Below, piece after piece: positions 7,721-25,200 of a DNA stretch of 64,000 nt; position 1 is the first letter of the stretch; each line of letters starts with the position of its first letter. The notes under the pieces were generated by a model. The model saw only the letters and a program-made list of their open reading frames with translations, ran no database searches and was not told the DNA's origin. The position numbers were made by a program, and so were the translations under genes. The stretch comes from Hypnocyclicus thermotrophus (GTDB lineage Bacteria > Fusobacteriota > Fusobacteriia > Fusobacteriales > Fusobacteriaceae), in the NCBI RefSeq assembly GCF_004365575.1, contig NZ_SOBG01000008.1:62001-126000 (forward strand), written 5' to 3'.

Positions 7721-8293
7721 CTATATTTTTGTATCAATTTTATTATCATATGTAGTTATTTCAACTTTTGGATATCTATCTACTCCAATATTTAATGTTC
7801 CTTTTTTACTATTAATATTTAAATTTTTTTTAACATTCAAATCAATTTTATAAGGTTTATAATTTATATTTACATATCCTTTTTTTACTCTAATTCGAAT
7901 AGGTTCTTTTGGAAAATATCCTACATTTATCTCTTTTTTACCATTTCTATAAAGTTTTTCAAGAGATATATTTGCAATAGCATTTTTTTCGTTATTTTCT
8001 ATTTTCATCATTCTATCGCCATCTTGAACATATTCACTAATTGCTTGATTTCCTTTTTGAAGGCTATAGTTTGATATATCTTTTTGTAAATCTACTGGAT
8101 TTTTTCTATATAGTTGCTTATCTGCTGGATAATTATGTATTTCTACTGTATCTGATTTAGTTTTTATATTAAATTTAGCTTTAGTTTTTCTAAGATTCAT
8201 AGTAGCATCTTGACCTCTTATTTTCATTTGTGGTCTTGTACTACTAATTCTTATATTACTATTTATAGTATTTATTTGTATCATTTTTGACAT
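7721..8293 (-). CDS. DUF6470 (YviE-like) protein of the flagellar cluster
   Basis: About 190 residues, beginning MSKMIQINTINSNIRIS and containing RPQMKIRGQDATMNLR; the middle is hydrophilic and the C-terminal half is predicted beta-rich. Composition and position between flgL and fliW match the DUF6470/YviE family of Bacillus and clostridia, whose function is unknown. I chose the ATG at 8293, which has AGG about 11 nt upstream. A GTG at 8302 would be too close to that site. Identification rests largely on gene order. Confidence 0.7.
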   Translation of the reverse strand: MSKMIQINTINSNIRISSTRPQMKIRGQDATMNLRKTKAKFNIKTKSDTVEIHNYPADKQLYRKNPVDLQKDISNYSLQKGNQAISEYVQDGDRMMKIENNEKNAIANISLEKLYRNGKKEINVGYFPKEPIRIRVKKGYVNINYKPYKIDLNVKKNLNINSKKGTLNIGVDRYPKVEITTYDNKIDTKI

Positions 8294-8325
8294 AATTATC
8301 ACAACCTATTATTACAATGTTAAAA

Positions 8326-9330
8326 TTATTTTACAAAATCTACTAAAGTTGGTTGAATAACTTTTGCTCCAACAGAAAGTGACATTCTCTGTACATTTTC
8401 TTGTGTTTTTAAATCCATTATAGATTTAGTTATATCTGTATCTTGTGTTCTTGACAATAAGTCACTCATACTTATTTTGTTATCTTCAAGTCTCGCCTCT
8501 ACTTGCTCTATTCTTCTCATTTTTGCTCCAACTTGAGATCTATATTTCATTATCATATTAAAAATTCTATCTAATTCACCTATCTGTGATTCTATTGTAT
8601 GTCCATCATTATCTTTATCGCTATTTACATCACCTTTATATATACTATCTCTTAAATATAATAGTTCCTTAAAAAGGTCTCCTTCTTTATTTTTAAAAAT
8701 TTTATCACCTGTAACATTATACTCTAATGTTACTCCTTTGTCTACTTCTGTCATCATCATTCCTTGATCACCAGTATAATCTATTTTAACTGGAACATCT
8801 TTTAATATGTTTTTTCTAAGGTTACCTTCTACGTCTGTTAAATCAAGTGTCGCTTCTTCTCCTTCTTTTAATAAATCATTCCCTGTGAATATTTTAAAAG
8901 GCTTTTCTTGGGTATTATATCCCGCAAAAATATATCTTCCCCCTATACTTGAATTTCCTACGACAACTAATTGCTCTATTAATTCATTTATTTCTGATGC
9001 TACTGCGTCTCTAGCAGTTTGCTCAAAACTATCATTTGCTGATTGTACCGCTAATTCTCTTATTCTTTGAAGTATTTCACTTACTTGAGTTAATGATACA
9101 TCTGTTGAGTTAAGATAAGTTTTTGCATTATCCACATTTTCTAAATATTTTTCTATTTCTGTCAATGCTGTTTGATAAGACATAACTTTTACAGCACCAA
9201 TTGGATTATCTTGAGGAAGATTAATTTTAGTTCCTTTTGACAATCTATCATTAGTAATATCCATTTTTTCCATATTATTTTGTATATTACTAATTGCATT
9301 TGTTGACATCATTTTTCCCGTTACTCTCAT
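8326..9330 (-). CDS. flgL: Flagellar hook-filament junction protein FlgL (HAP3)
   Basis: This 334-residue secreted axial protein joins the hook zone to the filament. The N-terminal flagellin-like helix (MRVTGKMMSTNAISNIQNN, then RLSKGTKINLPQDNPIGA) and the conserved RIRELAVQSANDS segment are visible. The C-terminal helix has the usual coiled-coil pattern ending KVIQPTLVDFV. There is no Sec signal, as expected for type III export. It lies 11 nt after flgK with AGAGGTG before the ATG. Confidence 0.95.
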   Translation of the reverse strand: MRVTGKMMSTNAISNIQNNMEKMDITNDRLSKGTKINLPQDNPIGAVKVMSYQTALTEIEKYLENVDNAKTYLNSTDVSLTQVSEILQRIRELAVQSANDSFEQTARDAVASEINELIEQLVVVGNSSIGGRYIFAGYNTQEKPFKIFTGNDLLKEGEEATLDLTDVEGNLRKNILKDVPVKIDYTGDQGMMMTEVDKGVTLEYNVTGDKIFKNKEGDLFKELLYLRDSIYKGDVNSDKDNDGHTIESQIGELDRIFNMIMKYRSQVGAKMRRIEQVEARLEDNKISMSDLLSRTQDTDITKSIMDLKTQENVQRMSLSVGAKVIQPTLVDFVK

Positions 9331-20890: not shown

Positions 20891-21568
20891 TTAAAAATTT
20901 TTCTTTAAAAATTTTTGTTCGAATTCTTCATAACCTTTTTTTCTAAGTACACATGAAGGACATTCTCCACATCCATCACCTTTTATTCCATTATAACAAG
21001 TGAGTGTATCATTTTTTATAATATCTAGTACTCCTAGCTCATAAGCCATATTCCATGTTTCTGCTTTATCAAGCCACATAAGAGGTGTTTCTACAACAAA
21101 TTGATAATCCATGGCAAGATTTAATGTAGTATTTAACGATTTTATAAAGTGATCTCTACAATCTGGATATCCACTAAAATCACTTTGTGATACTCCTGTA
21201 ATTATAATATTTATATCTCTTTGTTTTGCAAATACTGCTGCAAAAGTAAGAAAAATCATATTTCTACCATCAACAAATGTATTTGGAATTCCTTCTACTT
21301 CACCTTTCGGTACATTTACATCTACTCTAGTAAGTGCATTTGGAGCTAGTTGATTTAATAAACTCATATCTAATATATGATGCTCTATTCCATGTTTTTT
21401 AGTTATTTCTTGTGCACATTCAAGTTCTAATTTATGTTTTTGACCATAATCAAAAGACAATGCTATAACTTCTTTATACTCTTTTTTCGCTTTAAATAAA
21501 AGTGTTGTACTATCTTGACCACCACTAAATACAACTACTGCTCTATTTTTGTTAATTCTTTCTTTCAC
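20891..21568 (-). CDS. queC: 7-cyano-7-deazaguanine (preQ0) synthase QueC
   Basis: 225 residues starting at a GTG (position 21568) with GGGAGG 6 nt upstream; the longer ATG frame from 21613 lacks a site and overlaps folE. The enzyme converts 7-carboxy-7-deazaguanine to preQ0 with ATP and ammonia. The PP-loop motif is [15 protein letters not shown], and the C-terminal zinc site is [19 protein letters not shown]. It is the last gene of the riboswitch-controlled operon. Confidence 0.96.
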
Positions 21569-21599
21569 TTTTTTCCTCCCTAAATTTCTTTTGAATTTT

Positions 21600-22178
21600 T
21601 TATAACATTCCAAGTAGATTATTTAATAACTCTTTATCTTCTTTAAATTTTCCTCTAAGAGTTGTTGTCATGGTTTTAGTTCCTGGCTTTTTTATCCCTC
21701 TTGTTGTCATACAAGCGTGCTCACCTGTTATAATTACTGCTACATCTTCTGTTTCGGTAATTTTTTGCATGATTTCAGCTATATCCTTACCTATTCTTTC
21801 TTGTAATTGAGGTCTTCTTCCTACCATATCAGCAATTCTTACTACTTTACTTAATCCAATGATTTTTTCTTTTGGAATATATGCTACTGCAACCTTCATA
21901 TTATACATAAGAGCCAAATGATGCTCACACATAGAAAAAATTTCTATATCTTTTAATAAAACCATATCTTTATTGTTTTCTATATAACAATCCTCTTCAT
22001 CAAATGTTACTCCAAACATTTTTACTATTTCATCATTTGTATATTTTAACCCTTCAAAAATTTCCTCATACATTCTAGCTACTCTCATAGGTGTCCCTTG
22101 TAATCCTTCTCTCTCAGGATTTTCACCTATTAATTTTAATATTTCTTTTACATGATAAGCTATTTTTTCTTTATTCAT
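21600..22178 (-). CDS. folE: GTP cyclohydrolase I
   Basis: About 192 residues. It converts GTP to dihydroneopterin triphosphate, the first step for both folate and queuosine. Zinc ligands are in [10 protein letters not shown] and EHACMTTRG, and the active-site stretch [22 protein letters not shown] is intact. Start at 22178 ([10 protein letters not shown]) is preferred, with GAGGGG about 12 nt upstream in the end of queE; an in-frame ATG at 22202 has no site. Placement inside the que operon points to a queuosine supply role. Confidence 0.95.
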
Positions 22179-22185
22179 CGTATCT

Positions 22186-22854
22186 TTATACCCCTCTTTC
22201 ATCAGGATTCCATATAATTTTGTGCATTTGTAACTGCAATCTCACATCAGTTAATTTATGTTCTTTCATAAACTCTACTATATATTTTGGCTCTATCTCT
22301 TTAAATACAGGGCTAAAATATACTTTACCCTCTTTTATATAATTTTTTATTATATTTTTAGCTCTAATAAGATCATAGTTACTTCCTATAACAAATTTTA
22401 TAGTATCTTTATGAGTTAGTTTATCAAAATTCTCAATTTTCATCAACCCTTCCATTTTACTTGTAGGTAATTTATAATCCATAGTAATATATACTCTTTC
22501 TCTATTTATCTTTTCTAATTTTGATAAATCTATACTTCCATTTGTCTCTATTTCAATATTTATTTTATTATTAATAGATAATATTTCTTGTATAACCACA
22601 CTAATATCATCTTGTAAAAGAGGTTCTCCACCTGTTAAAGTAATATTTTTAATATTATACATATTTATATCATTTTTTATATCTTCTATTGTTATATAAA
22701 TAGTATTTACATTTTTTTCATTCGCCCACATTGTATCACAATAAGTACATTTTAGATTACAACTCGGAAATCGAATAAATAAACTAATTTCTCCTGCTCT
22801 TTGTCCTTCACCATTTATACTAATAAATTTTTCTACTATTTTATATTGTTTCAT
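22186..22854 (-). CDS. queE: 7-carboxy-7-deazaguanine synthase QueE
   Basis: This 222-residue radical-SAM enzyme rearranges 6-carboxytetrahydropterin to CDG. The cluster motif is [12 protein letters not shown] (CxxxCxxC, with the QueE-typical short N-terminus [13 protein letters not shown]), and [11 protein letters not shown] is the SAM-binding GGE motif. Its ATG overlaps the queD stop (ATGA). Length fits the family. Confidence 0.95.
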
Positions 22855-23273
22855 CTCTGCTCCTCATAAATAGCACTATTATTTGGTGTTTCATATACTA
22901 TTACTCTTTTTACATCAAATTTTTTATTAAATTCATCATAAAAATATTTTGAAAAATTTTCTGCAGTAGGTCTAAACTCTACTTCAATCAATCTAAAATT
23001 TTCTCCTTGAAGCATATTAAAAAGCTCTTTTGATAAACTGTTTTTTTCTACAATTAAAGCATGATCATGAAAATCTACAAATTCTTTTACAACTTTTTTT
23101 AAATCACCAAAATCTACTACCATTCCTCTAAGATGGCCATTTTCTACTAATGCATCTGATTTTATTTCCACTACTACTCTCCATCTATGGCCATGAATAT
23201 TAGCACACTTCCCTTTATATCCTTTTAAAAAATGTGCACTATCAAAACTATGTTCTGTCTGTAAAATATACAT
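22851..23273 (-). CDS. queD: 6-carboxytetrahydropterin synthase QueD
   Basis: 140 residues beginning MYILQTEHSFDSAHFL. The start at 23273 is preferred because AAGGAGT lies 7 nt upstream. The family motif KCANIHGHRWRV has the active-site Cys and two zinc His; FDSAHFL supplies the third His. PTAENFSKYFYDEF and the C-terminal ETPNNSAIY are typical. It follows the activator gene with a 5-nt gap. Confidence 0.95.
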   Translation of the reverse strand: MYILQTEHSFDSAHFLKGYKGKCANIHGHRWRVVVEIKSDALVENGHLRGMVVDFGDLKKVVKEFVDFHDHALIVEKNSLSKELFNMLQGENFRLIEVEFRPTAENFSKYFYDEFNKKFDVKRVIVYETPNNSAIYEEQR

Positions 23274-23278
23274 ATTTT

Positions 23279-24046
23279 TTACTCCTTTTCTATAAAATTC
23301 ATTCCATAATAGCAACAACCAATAGCTCCATTAAATTGTGGTTCATCTAATATTAAAATGTCATTATAATCATTTTGTAAATATTCTTTTATTGCCTTAT
23401 TTTTCGCTACGCCACCACTTATTATCAATTCATCAGATAAAAATTTTGTAAGCATAGGTCGAAGTCTTTTATACATAGAATAATTTACTCCTGCACAAAG
23501 AACTTCTACACTATTTCCTTCAGCAATTTTTCCAATTAGCTCTGATTCTGAAAATACTGCACAAGTTGAATTAAGTTCAACAGGATTTATGTAATGATTT
23601 GATAATTCATCTAAAGATATTTCAAGTACATTGCTCATATTTTCAAGATATCTTCCGCATGAAGCAGCACATTTATCATTTAAATCAAGATCTGTTATTA
23701 TTCCTTTTTCTACTTTTATTATTTTTACATCTTGACCACCCACATCAAGTAAGATAAAATCTTTTTTCTCTGTTTGGTACATAGCTCCATATGCATGAGC
23801 TTTTATTTCATTTATAGGCATAAACATTTTTAAATCTGTATTATTTCTACCATAACCTGTAGATATTCCTATATCTATATTTTTTATTCCTAGCTTTTCT
23901 AAATCAACTGTTATTTTTTCATTATAATTACAATAATTTTTATAAAATTTAACTGTACTCATTTTAAATTTTTCAATAATTTTATTGTTTTCCATAAGAA
24001 CAATTTTTACTTCTCTACTACCTAAATCTATACCTAAGATTCTCAT
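23279..24046 (-). CDS. BadF/BadG/HgdC-family ATPase, activator of a 2-hydroxyacyl-CoA dehydratase-like protein
   Basis: 255 residues of the ASKHA fold. LGIDLGSREVKIVLM is the phosphate-1 motif and LLDVGGQDVKIIKV the phosphate-2 motif. Cys in NDKCAASCGRYLE and NSTCAVFSESELIG are the ligands expected to bridge a [4Fe-4S] cluster across a dimer, as in HgdC. Such proteins use ATP to push an electron at very low potential into a partner. The ATG overlaps the partner's stop (ATGA). It is embedded in the queuosine operon, where a dehydratase activator is not expected. The electron-activator role is inferred. Confidence 0.85.
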   Translation of the reverse strand: MRILGIDLGSREVKIVLMENNKIIEKFKMSTVKFYKNYCNYNEKITVDLEKLGIKNIDIGISTGYGRNNTDLKMFMPINEIKAHAYGAMYQTEKKDFILLDVGGQDVKIIKVEKGIITDLDLNDKCAASCGRYLENMSNVLEISLDELSNHYINPVELNSTCAVFSESELIGKIAEGNSVEVLCAGVNYSMYKRLRPMLTKFLSDELIISGGVAKNKAIKEYLQNDYNDILILDEPQFNGAIGCCYYGMNFIEKE

Positions 24047-25044
24047 CTATTACTCCTTTTTTTTAAATCTAATAACATATCTAAAAATGCTTCTATTCTT
24101 AATTTTGTTCTAGCATCTAGTCTATCATCCTTATCTCCTTCAATATTTAATACAGGAATATTTAATCTATTTTTTATAATAATATCTTCCATCGCTCTAT
24201 GACAAAAACTTTGAGTATAATGTATTATTCCGTCTATTTTTCTTTCGTTTATCTGTTTTTCTAGTTCTTTTATTCTATAATCTATATCATATGGATAAGT
24301 ATAATCATAGTATTGTTCATAAATATTGTCATATTTAAACGCTCTCGGAAATGCAAACTCTCTTGGAACTTCATTATAAACTATTTTTGAATCAAATTTT
24401 TCTACAAATTCATGTAAATCACTAAACATTGTAGGTACTCCAATTAATCCTAAATTTAATTTCTTAATATCTGGAGTTCTTTTAATTATTTCTTTTAATT
24501 TCTCATCTAAAAATTTTGAATAATTATCTAAATCACCATCAAAATCGCTTAAACAAAGTTGTAAAATATGATTTTCAAATCCGCTTACTTTTCCTTGTAA
24601 TGTTAATTCATCTATTTTTCGAGCTTTTTCTCTAATATTGTTTATTTCCCATCTTATATTTTCTACTTCTTCCAATGTAACATTAAAAAGACTCATAAAT
24701 TTATCTATCTCTTTTTTTATATCTTCAAGGTTATGCGAATGCGGATAAGAAAATGGATAAAGCTTTATTCCTTTTTCTTTAAAAAGTTCTAATAATACTT
24801 TTGTATTTGAACAATCTCCTTCCAACACTGCTACTACCTCTTTTATTCCTTCACTTATACAAGCACTATAAATGCCTTTTATCCATGCACACATACTTTT
24901 AGGAAAACCATATTTTTCTGCATCATGTATATATTCTCTATAGTCATCAGATACTATAAAAACATTATTTAAATCAACTACTTTATATCCAGCAGCTAAC
25001 AACACTTCAATTGGAACTGTTGTTGTTATTCCTATTTTCTTCAT
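24043..25044 (-). CDS. 2-hydroxyacyl-CoA dehydratase D-component-like [Fe-S] protein (HgdB/DCCP family)
   Basis: 333 residues, shorter than HgdA/HgdB (about 380-480). Candidate cluster cysteines are C52 (KSMCAWIKG), C62, C78 (EGDCSNTK) and one in YTQSFCHRAMEDI near the C-terminus, giving the three-or-more Cys pattern of this family. It is a single subunit with one activator, like the E. coli YjiM/YjiL and double-cubane-cluster pairs, not the two-subunit dehydratases. It is the first gene after the preQ1-I riboswitch, with AAGGAG before ATG. No acyl-CoA pathway genes are near. Confidence 0.83.
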   Translation of the reverse strand: MKKIGITTTVPIEVLLAAGYKVVDLNNVFIVSDDYREYIHDAEKYGFPKSMCAWIKGIYSACISEGIKEVVAVLEGDCSNTKVLLELFKEKGIKLYPFSYPHSHNLEDIKKEIDKFMSLFNVTLEEVENIRWEINNIREKARKIDELTLQGKVSGFENHILQLCLSDFDGDLDNYSKFLDEKLKEIIKRTPDIKKLNLGLIGVPTMFSDLHEFVEKFDSKIVYNEVPREFAFPRAFKYDNIYEQYYDYTYPYDIDYRIKELEKQINERKIDGIIHYTQSFCHRAMEDIIIKNRLNIPVLNIEGDKDDRLDARTKLRIEAFLDMLLDLKKRSNR

Positions 25045-25075
25045 CTTCTTTACTCCTTAAATTTCTTCAAAAATC

Positions 25076-25152
25076 AAAAAAAAGATAGACTTTGCCTATC
25101 TTAACAAAGCCCTAGTTTTATTTATAGACAGGATGGTGCAACTGAACTGTCT
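25076..25152 (-). ncRNA. preQ1-I riboswitch with intrinsic terminator
   Basis: Minus strand, reading from 25152. P1 is AGACAG pairing with CTGTCT, with loop 1 TTCAGTTGCACCATC between them. An A-rich tail (ATAAATAAAACTAGGG) follows, whose AACT can pair with loop-1 AGTT to form the H-type pseudoknot of class I aptamers. This agrees with B. subtilis-type preQ1-I in order, A-rich tail and loop C content. Directly after comes a terminator (AAGATAG, 7-nt loop, CTATCTT, 8 T). TTTG/CAAA alternatives near 25091-25106 could form an antiterminator. It controls the hgdB-like/que operon by attenuation. Confidence 0.85.
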
Positions 25153-25171: not shown

Positions 25172-25200
25172 ATTATATCATATTTTTAATAATTTGTAAA
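25172..25200 (-). promoter_or_regulatory. Promoter of the preQ1 riboswitch operon
   Basis: On the minus strand, TTTACA, a 17-nt spacer ending TGA and TATAAT (extended -10) lie about 20 nt before the aptamer. Transcription start is expected near 25165. Confidence 0.75.

Follow-up and report, generated by a model that had tools for sequence, protein, structure and literature searches.

An HgdB/HgdC-type gene pair predicted to replace QueF in queuosine operons led by a preQ1-I riboswitch

The window, i.e. the whole stretch of 64,000 nucleotides that was analysed (G000:C8:62001-126000), belongs to a 2.22 Mb genome which is 99.98% complete. On its minus strand, from position 25044 down to position 20891, six genes follow one another. 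The first encodes a reductase subunit of the HgdB/BCR-HAD family, 333 aa long and called here the D-component (24043..25044; PF06050); its relatives, among them a 90% identical one in 'Fusobacteriales bacterium K_7_4_bin.55', place the window in Fusobacteriota. The second encodes an HgdC-type ATPase of 255 aa, the activase (23279..24046; TIGR00241 above cut-off, PF01869). Then come queD, for 6-carboxytetrahydropterin synthase (22851..23273; TIGR03367 above cut-off), queE, for 7-carboxy-7-deazaguanine synthase of the clostridial type (22186..22854; TIGR03963 above cut-off), folE, for GTP cyclohydrolase I (21600..22202; TIGR00063 above cut-off; the true start is perhaps the ATG at 22178), and queC, for preQ0 synthase (20891..21613; PF06508 with 281.8 bits, TIGR00364 above cut-off), the start of which is uncertain and is listed as a TTG. 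A preliminary description, made from the sequence alone, had given this same order and these same identities; both held, the Pfam and NCBIfam profiles supporting each gene. Its claim that the genes are joined by ATGA overlaps held only in part. Overlaps of this 4-base type are real at two junctions, D-component/activase (24043-24046) and queD/queE (22851-22854); those at queE/folE and folE/queC are present or not according to the start codon chosen, and queD most likely starts at the ATG at 23273, directly past the activase stop.

Upstream of these genes, on the same strand, a sigma-70-type promoter is predicted at 25172..25200 (TTTACA and TATAAT 17 bases apart, with a TG before the -10); that it drives the operon is an inference from a consensus scan only (11 of 12 matches). 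It is followed, at 25110..25151 of the minus strand, by the aptamer of a type I preQ1-I riboswitch, with the P1 stem GACAG/CUGUC, the loop UUCAGUUGCACCAUC and the A-rich tail UAUAAAUAAAACUAGGG. The class I type I consensus has a UU after the 5' strand of P1, a UC before its 3' strand and a C in the tail (PMC11625349); the leader meets it, as GACAG-UU...UC-CUGUC-UAUAAAUAAAACUAGG, with an A-rich tail containing the conserved C. At curated thresholds, Rfam detected no riboswitch in the window, nor in 32 relatives, and a low-threshold Rfam scan of the leader returned chance families only. Run on the bare stretch, RF00522 (PreQ1) aligned over its full length and on the correct strand, yet reached 9.2 bits for a cut-off of 39. 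The riboswitch, already proposed in the preliminary description, is therefore assigned on the match to the type I consensus and on conservation, the Rfam gathering score not being met. A search for the P1/loop pattern gave a single occurrence in the window and none in 100 shuffles, and the riboswitch pattern lies at most 250 bases upstream of 81 out of 94 D-component genes (a set that includes some duplicates of one genome), with two more slightly farther away. An attenuator was identified at 25082..25112 of the minus strand by a terminator scan and RNA folding: a terminator hairpin, AAGATAG-GCAAAGT-CTATCTT, and a T run. The terminator scan returned two overlapping hairpins in the leader, and an alternative pairing, GGGCUUUG/CAAAGUC, begins in the aptamer tail and overlaps the terminator hairpin. 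The structure of the leader is that of a type I preQ1-I aptamer plus attenuator; its function is inferred.

When P1 was left free in the search, every good candidate turned out to be GACAG/CUGUC, across two phyla and likewise in QueF operons, so that this stem is conserved beyond what a plain stem requires. The Rfam PreQ1 model falls 30 bits short for GACAG/CUGUC riboswitches, a subgroup which is probably under-annotated.

The genome-wide search for queF, queG and queH advocated in the preliminary description was carried out with HMMs. QueF (PF14489) was found neither in the window, as had been stated, nor in the whole genome, the control genomes giving the expected matches. QueG (PF08331) had no match in the genome, QueH is present (228 bits), and there is one TGT-family protein (Tgt), without a second, DpdA-like one. 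Since the que genes make preQ0, QueH and Tgt are present and QueF is absent, the genome makes preQ0 and has the tRNA end of the pathway (the presence of QueA being inferred), and its step from preQ0 to preQ1 is left without a known enzyme.

The D-component matches the Pfam HGD-D profile PF06050 with 131.5 bits (cut-off 28.4) over positions 2-342 of 342, and the activase matches TIGR00241 with 177.3 bits (cut-off 125.4). The Pfam scan of the pair returned PF06050 and PF01869/TsaD alone; the QueF profile was not matched. In Foldseek comparisons, the AlphaFold2 model of the D-component (pLDDT 82.7) met the two alpha/beta-domain fold of the DCCP, HadBC and BzdNO/MbdON chains, with query TM values of about 0.67-0.78 and an E value of 1.5e-15 for 7YYL (DCCP). 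DCCP is also its top-ranked match by sequence profiles, and the score against the DCCP family NF040772 is 54.6 bits, far under the cut-off of 350. C52, C78 and C281 of the D-component are invariant in 112 of 112 relatives and no other cysteine is, C62 being V, L or A in 9 of the 112 sequences. The activase has C126 and C162, present in 111 of 111 sequences, the predicted ligands of an inter-subunit [4Fe-4S] cluster; in HgdC these positions hold the bridging cluster. The ligands of the [4Fe-4S]-OH2 site of BzdO are Cys95/128/380, and the [8Fe-9S] cluster of BzdN has six cysteines (PMC11971306). The BzdO/HadB-type ligand pattern, two N-terminal cysteines and one C-terminal, is met by the D-component. 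From the three invariant cysteines, the published ligand patterns and the score below the DCCP cut-off, we predict, without evidence other than sequence, that the cluster is a three-cysteine [4Fe-4S] with an open iron and not a double cubane; the preliminary description had mentioned double-cubane relatives. The genome context argues against a CoA-ester substrate, an inference made from neighbouring genes and without ligand prediction.

Two other possibilities were considered for these proteins. A double-cubane cluster in the D-component was ruled out by the cysteine count (three, not six) and the family score, and a defence function found no match in PADLOC.

The distribution of the D-component and of QueF was surveyed in 98 genomes of Fusobacteriota, with a threshold of E below 1e-100 for D-component orthologues, and in 393 genomes of Clostridia, sampled evenly across the class. 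Among the Fusobacteriota, 15 have the D-component, 13 a strong QueF and 27 a true QueC. The 27 genomes with QueC fall into 13 with the D-component only, 13 with QueF only, none with both and one with neither; this last one (G046) is 90% complete, in 250 contigs, and its sister G045 has the pair. G045 and G061 have the D-component without QueC; their assemblies are fragmented, with a completeness of 70% and 81%. The Clostridia gave 31 genomes with the D-component, 45 with QueF and 62 with QueC, the latter divided into 29 with the D-component only and 33 with QueF only, with no genome having both or neither. QueF and the D-component are thus found together in 0 of 89 QueC genomes from two phyla. 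A genuine QueF was also absent from all 50 genomes reached via pair loci, where only four weak hits were obtained: three are FolE, including one exactly at the cut-off, and the fourth, L176, is below the cut-off (21 bits, in a 368-aa frame). FolE is a T-fold relative of QueF.

Weak QueF hits (E values of 1e-4 to 1e-6) also appeared in the Fusobacteriota and Clostridia, and were checked: those tested are FolE, with the exception of L176.

Fisher tests of the exclusion gave 2e-18 and 7e-7, values that are overstated because the genomes are related and shared ancestry is ignored. The switches were for that reason counted on trees, and parsimony requires at least three D-component/QueF changes on the QueC tree and at least three on the Tgt tree of the Fusobacteriota, Tgt being a marker outside the operon. 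Both trees come from short searches and some of their branches are weak; only about three switches can be considered certain. For the surveyed genomes with QueC, bar G046, the pair stands where QueF is missing, and it does so in two phyla.

The QueF-type operons of the Fusobacteriota have the order queD-queE-folE-queC-queF, their queD, queE and folE being about 50-60% identical to those of the window. The riboswitch of the pair operon also heads QueF-type que operons, as in L223 (e.g. GACAGUUCAUUUGUACCAUCCUGUCUAUAAACAAAACUAGGG) and, in Clostridia, L227 and L228. Since the leaders are the same, the loci compared show one regulon throughout, with either queF at the end or the pair at the head.

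Relatives were collected by scanning an alignment of the D-component against 84,980 species genomes, which left 80 loci, from Clostridia and related anaerobes and from Fusobacteriota. In all of them the D-component gene is followed by the adjacent activase gene. Que genes come after the pair in 65 loci, mostly as queD-queE-(folE)-queC and otherwise as queC-queD-queE; this D-act-queC-queD-queE order is an independent arrangement, with a different QueC lineage. One further locus, L171, breaks off within queC (compare L015). The other 14 loci have QueT (PF06177) behind the pair in six cases and QPTR/YhhQ (PF02592) in three, while five show neither transporter nor que genes or reach the contig end. 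No queC lies near the pair in the nine transporter loci. As YhhQ of E. coli is required for preQ0 transport (PMC5372724), these loci are interpreted as preQ0 salvage; the inference is weaker for the QueT loci than for the QPTR ones, since some proteins of the QueT family carry preQ1, not preQ0. Linkage of the pair to que genes and to a preQ1 riboswitch in other genomes, the search for which had been proposed in the preliminary description, was found widely. It is not universal. L099, L122, L154, L159 and L216-L220 have neither que genes nor transporters near the pair; around the pair of L216-L220 (genomes G318, G524, G457, G352 and G217), a search for que genes, a known transporter and the riboswitch pattern found none of them, and these five genomes carry QueC elsewhere and lack QueF. 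A second D-component/activase subfamily, 45-49% identical and followed by queC-queD-queE, is present in seven fetched loci (L206, L207, L209-L211, L213 and L214); no preQ1-I pattern was found in their leaders within 700 bases.

The interpretation that we very much favour is that the two proteins form an ATP-dependent preQ0 reductase, which turns the nitrile into an amine in place of QueF. It is an inference without biochemistry: to our knowledge there is no assay, tRNA analysis or mutant for any member of the pair family. It rests on the absence of QueF, the exclusion, the operon swap, the shared riboswitch, the transporter linkage, the chemistry of the fold and the three invariant cysteines; among these, the gene identities and linkage, the exclusion, the common riboswitch and the cysteine pattern are shown. 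The possibility, raised in the preliminary description, that the pair may replace QueF is thus supported by every available test (absence, exclusion, swap, transporter association). What would have refuted it, a normal queF and queG/queH elsewhere in the genome together with no que linkage in relatives, was not observed.

The proposed sequence of events is the following. FolE, QueD, QueE and QueC, made from one transcript, would produce preQ0 (7-cyano-7-deazaguanine). That they do so is established for these four families, and membership of the window's genes in them is shown. The activase, as a homodimer with one bridging [4Fe-4S], would use ATP hydrolysis to send single low-potential electrons into the D-component; this role is inferred from its HgdC/BcrAD homologues and from the invariant C126 and C162, and the electron path itself is inferred. 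The D-component, probably a homodimer, would hold at C52/C78/C281 a [4Fe-4S] in which one iron has a free site. PreQ0 is inferred to bind with its nitrile at or beside this iron, and four one-electron steps, with protons, may then reduce the nitrile first to an imine and finally to the aminomethyl of preQ1; the catalysis as a whole is likewise inferred. DCCP, the nearest relative, acts as a reductase on acetylene, azide and hydrazine (PMC11971306), which suggests that a protein of this fold could also reduce a C-N triple bond. Tgt would put preQ1 into tRNA, where QueA, if present as inferred, and QueH would complete queuosine, and binding of preQ1 to the leader riboswitch would shut the operon by attenuation. 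In the relatives without nearby queC, the pair would act on salvaged preQ0.

Other readings are conceivable. The preliminary description had also envisaged that the pair replaces QueG or QueH, reducing epoxyqueuosine in tRNA. The step is reductive and belongs to the same pathway, the low-potential chemistry of BCR/HAD-type enzymes could open an epoxide, and QueG is absent from the genome. However, QueH is in the genome and in 13 of the 15 Fusobacteriota with the D-component, the two others being assemblies 62% and 93% complete, and it is also found in genomes with QueF; the pair follows the absence of QueF, not that of QueH. Moreover, it is found beside free-base genes, which act ahead of Tgt, and beside base transporters. 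We consider this reading very unlikely, and that part of the preliminary description unsupported.

It is likewise very improbable that the pair is accessory, serving the radical-SAM enzyme QueE as a source of low-potential electrons or acting before preQ0, with something else as the nitrile reductase. In favour of this, the commonest arrangement places the pair immediately upstream of queD-queE. Against it, QueE orthologues about 50% identical function in QueF-type operons without the pair, the pair is kept where a transporter replaces queD/queE/queC, and preQ1 must be made, all 62 Clostridia with QueC having exactly one of QueF and the D-component. Very unlikely, too, is another, unknown modification of a 7-deazaguanine (e.g. 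by a dehydratase, or towards a preQ0-derived DNA base or metabolite), with preQ1 obtained by salvage. The superfamily does contain dehydratases and preQ0 feeds other natural pathways, but control is by a preQ1-I riboswitch, which QueF operons share, there is a single TGT-family protein with no DpdA-like second one, QueH is present, and queDEC would be superfluous under pure preQ1 salvage.

As a preQ0 reductase, the pair would share with QueF, the NADPH-dependent 7-cyano-7-deazaguanine reductase (PF14489, T-fold), the predicted reaction, the place in the operon, the preQ1-I riboswitch control and the co-occurrence with QueC and Tgt. There is no homology between them. The chemistry of QueF relies on a cysteine thioimide and NADPH; that of the pair would rely on an iron-sulfur cluster and on low-potential electrons driven by ATP. 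Its best match in sequence and fold, DCCP/DCCP-R (PDB 6ENO, 7YYL, 7YZM; NF040772), is likewise a two-gene system with an HgdC-type activase, and the pair, like it, is probably a homodimer that reduces small molecules with multiple bonds; DCCP differs by its six cysteines, against three invariant ones, as well as by the family score, and its physiological role is unknown, whereas that of the pair is predictable. HgdAB/HadBC and their activators HgdC/HadI have in common with the pair the fold (3O3M), a TIGR00241 activase and a three-cysteine [4Fe-4S] site, but the pair has one D-type gene instead of two and no CoA-substrate context; compared with these 2-hydroxyacyl-CoA dehydratases, a net four-electron reduction is predicted, with ATP needed for each electron transfer and not once. 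The class I benzoyl-CoA reductases (BzdNOPQ/BcrCBDA/MbdONPQ) also carry out an ATP-driven reduction by a BCR/HAD dimer, and the Cys95/128/380 site of BzdO (PMC11971306) resembles C52/C78/C281; the pair differs from them in lacking a double-cubane partner subunit, in having one activase gene, not two, and in a substrate that is not an aromatic CoA ester.

Neither the superfamily nor the pathway is new; the novelty lies in the predicted reaction, partner and role. According to a paper of 2017 (PMC5372742), no biological nitrile reduction was known apart from the reaction of QueF. No paper linking BCR/HAD proteins with queuosine was found in the open-access literature searched, which leaves subscription journals and preprints largely uncovered; within that scope, nothing contradicts the statement of the preliminary description that no characterised system of this kind is known. 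A bolder reading, which we hold to be likely, is that the pair is a second biological nitrile reductase, evolutionarily unrelated to the first: an ATP-driven BCR/HAD enzyme with a [4Fe-4S] cluster, which makes preQ1 from preQ0 in Clostridia, Halanaerobiales-type bacteria and Fusobacteriota, and which has changed places with QueF three times or more within a single riboswitch regulon. If this is true, nitrile reduction has a second, non-homologous solution, driven by ATP and iron-sulfur chemistry, and one branch of the superfamily to which DCCP, the archetype, belongs acquires a physiological substrate, something that DCCP itself lacks. The missing queuosine step would also be filled for many anaerobes scored as unable to make preQ1 because pathway surveys use QueF as the marker gene of this compound (e.g. 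the rules of PMC6593275 and PMC11130926), and models of queuosine-precursor exchange in microbiomes would change.

A few oddities were seen among the relatives. L026 (G043:C4:831923-832900) contains, at 1513-2478, a second, solitary copy of the D-component, 63% identical to that of the window; behind it is a 53-residue activase remnant, and the genes beside it encode a membrane protein of electron transfer and a protein resembling alanine racemase. G043 also has an intact pair, in its que operon. In L164, from Ruminiclostridium sufflavum, about 35 extra residues are inserted in frame into the D-component (8001-9101) near its residue 169, splitting the HMM match into two pieces; a QueC gene comes after the pair. 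Finally, L150, a record titled Lutibacter sp. B2 (a genus of Bacteroidota), shows a clostridial-type riboswitch-D-act-queD-queE-queC arrangement, 64% identical, and is probably mislabelled.
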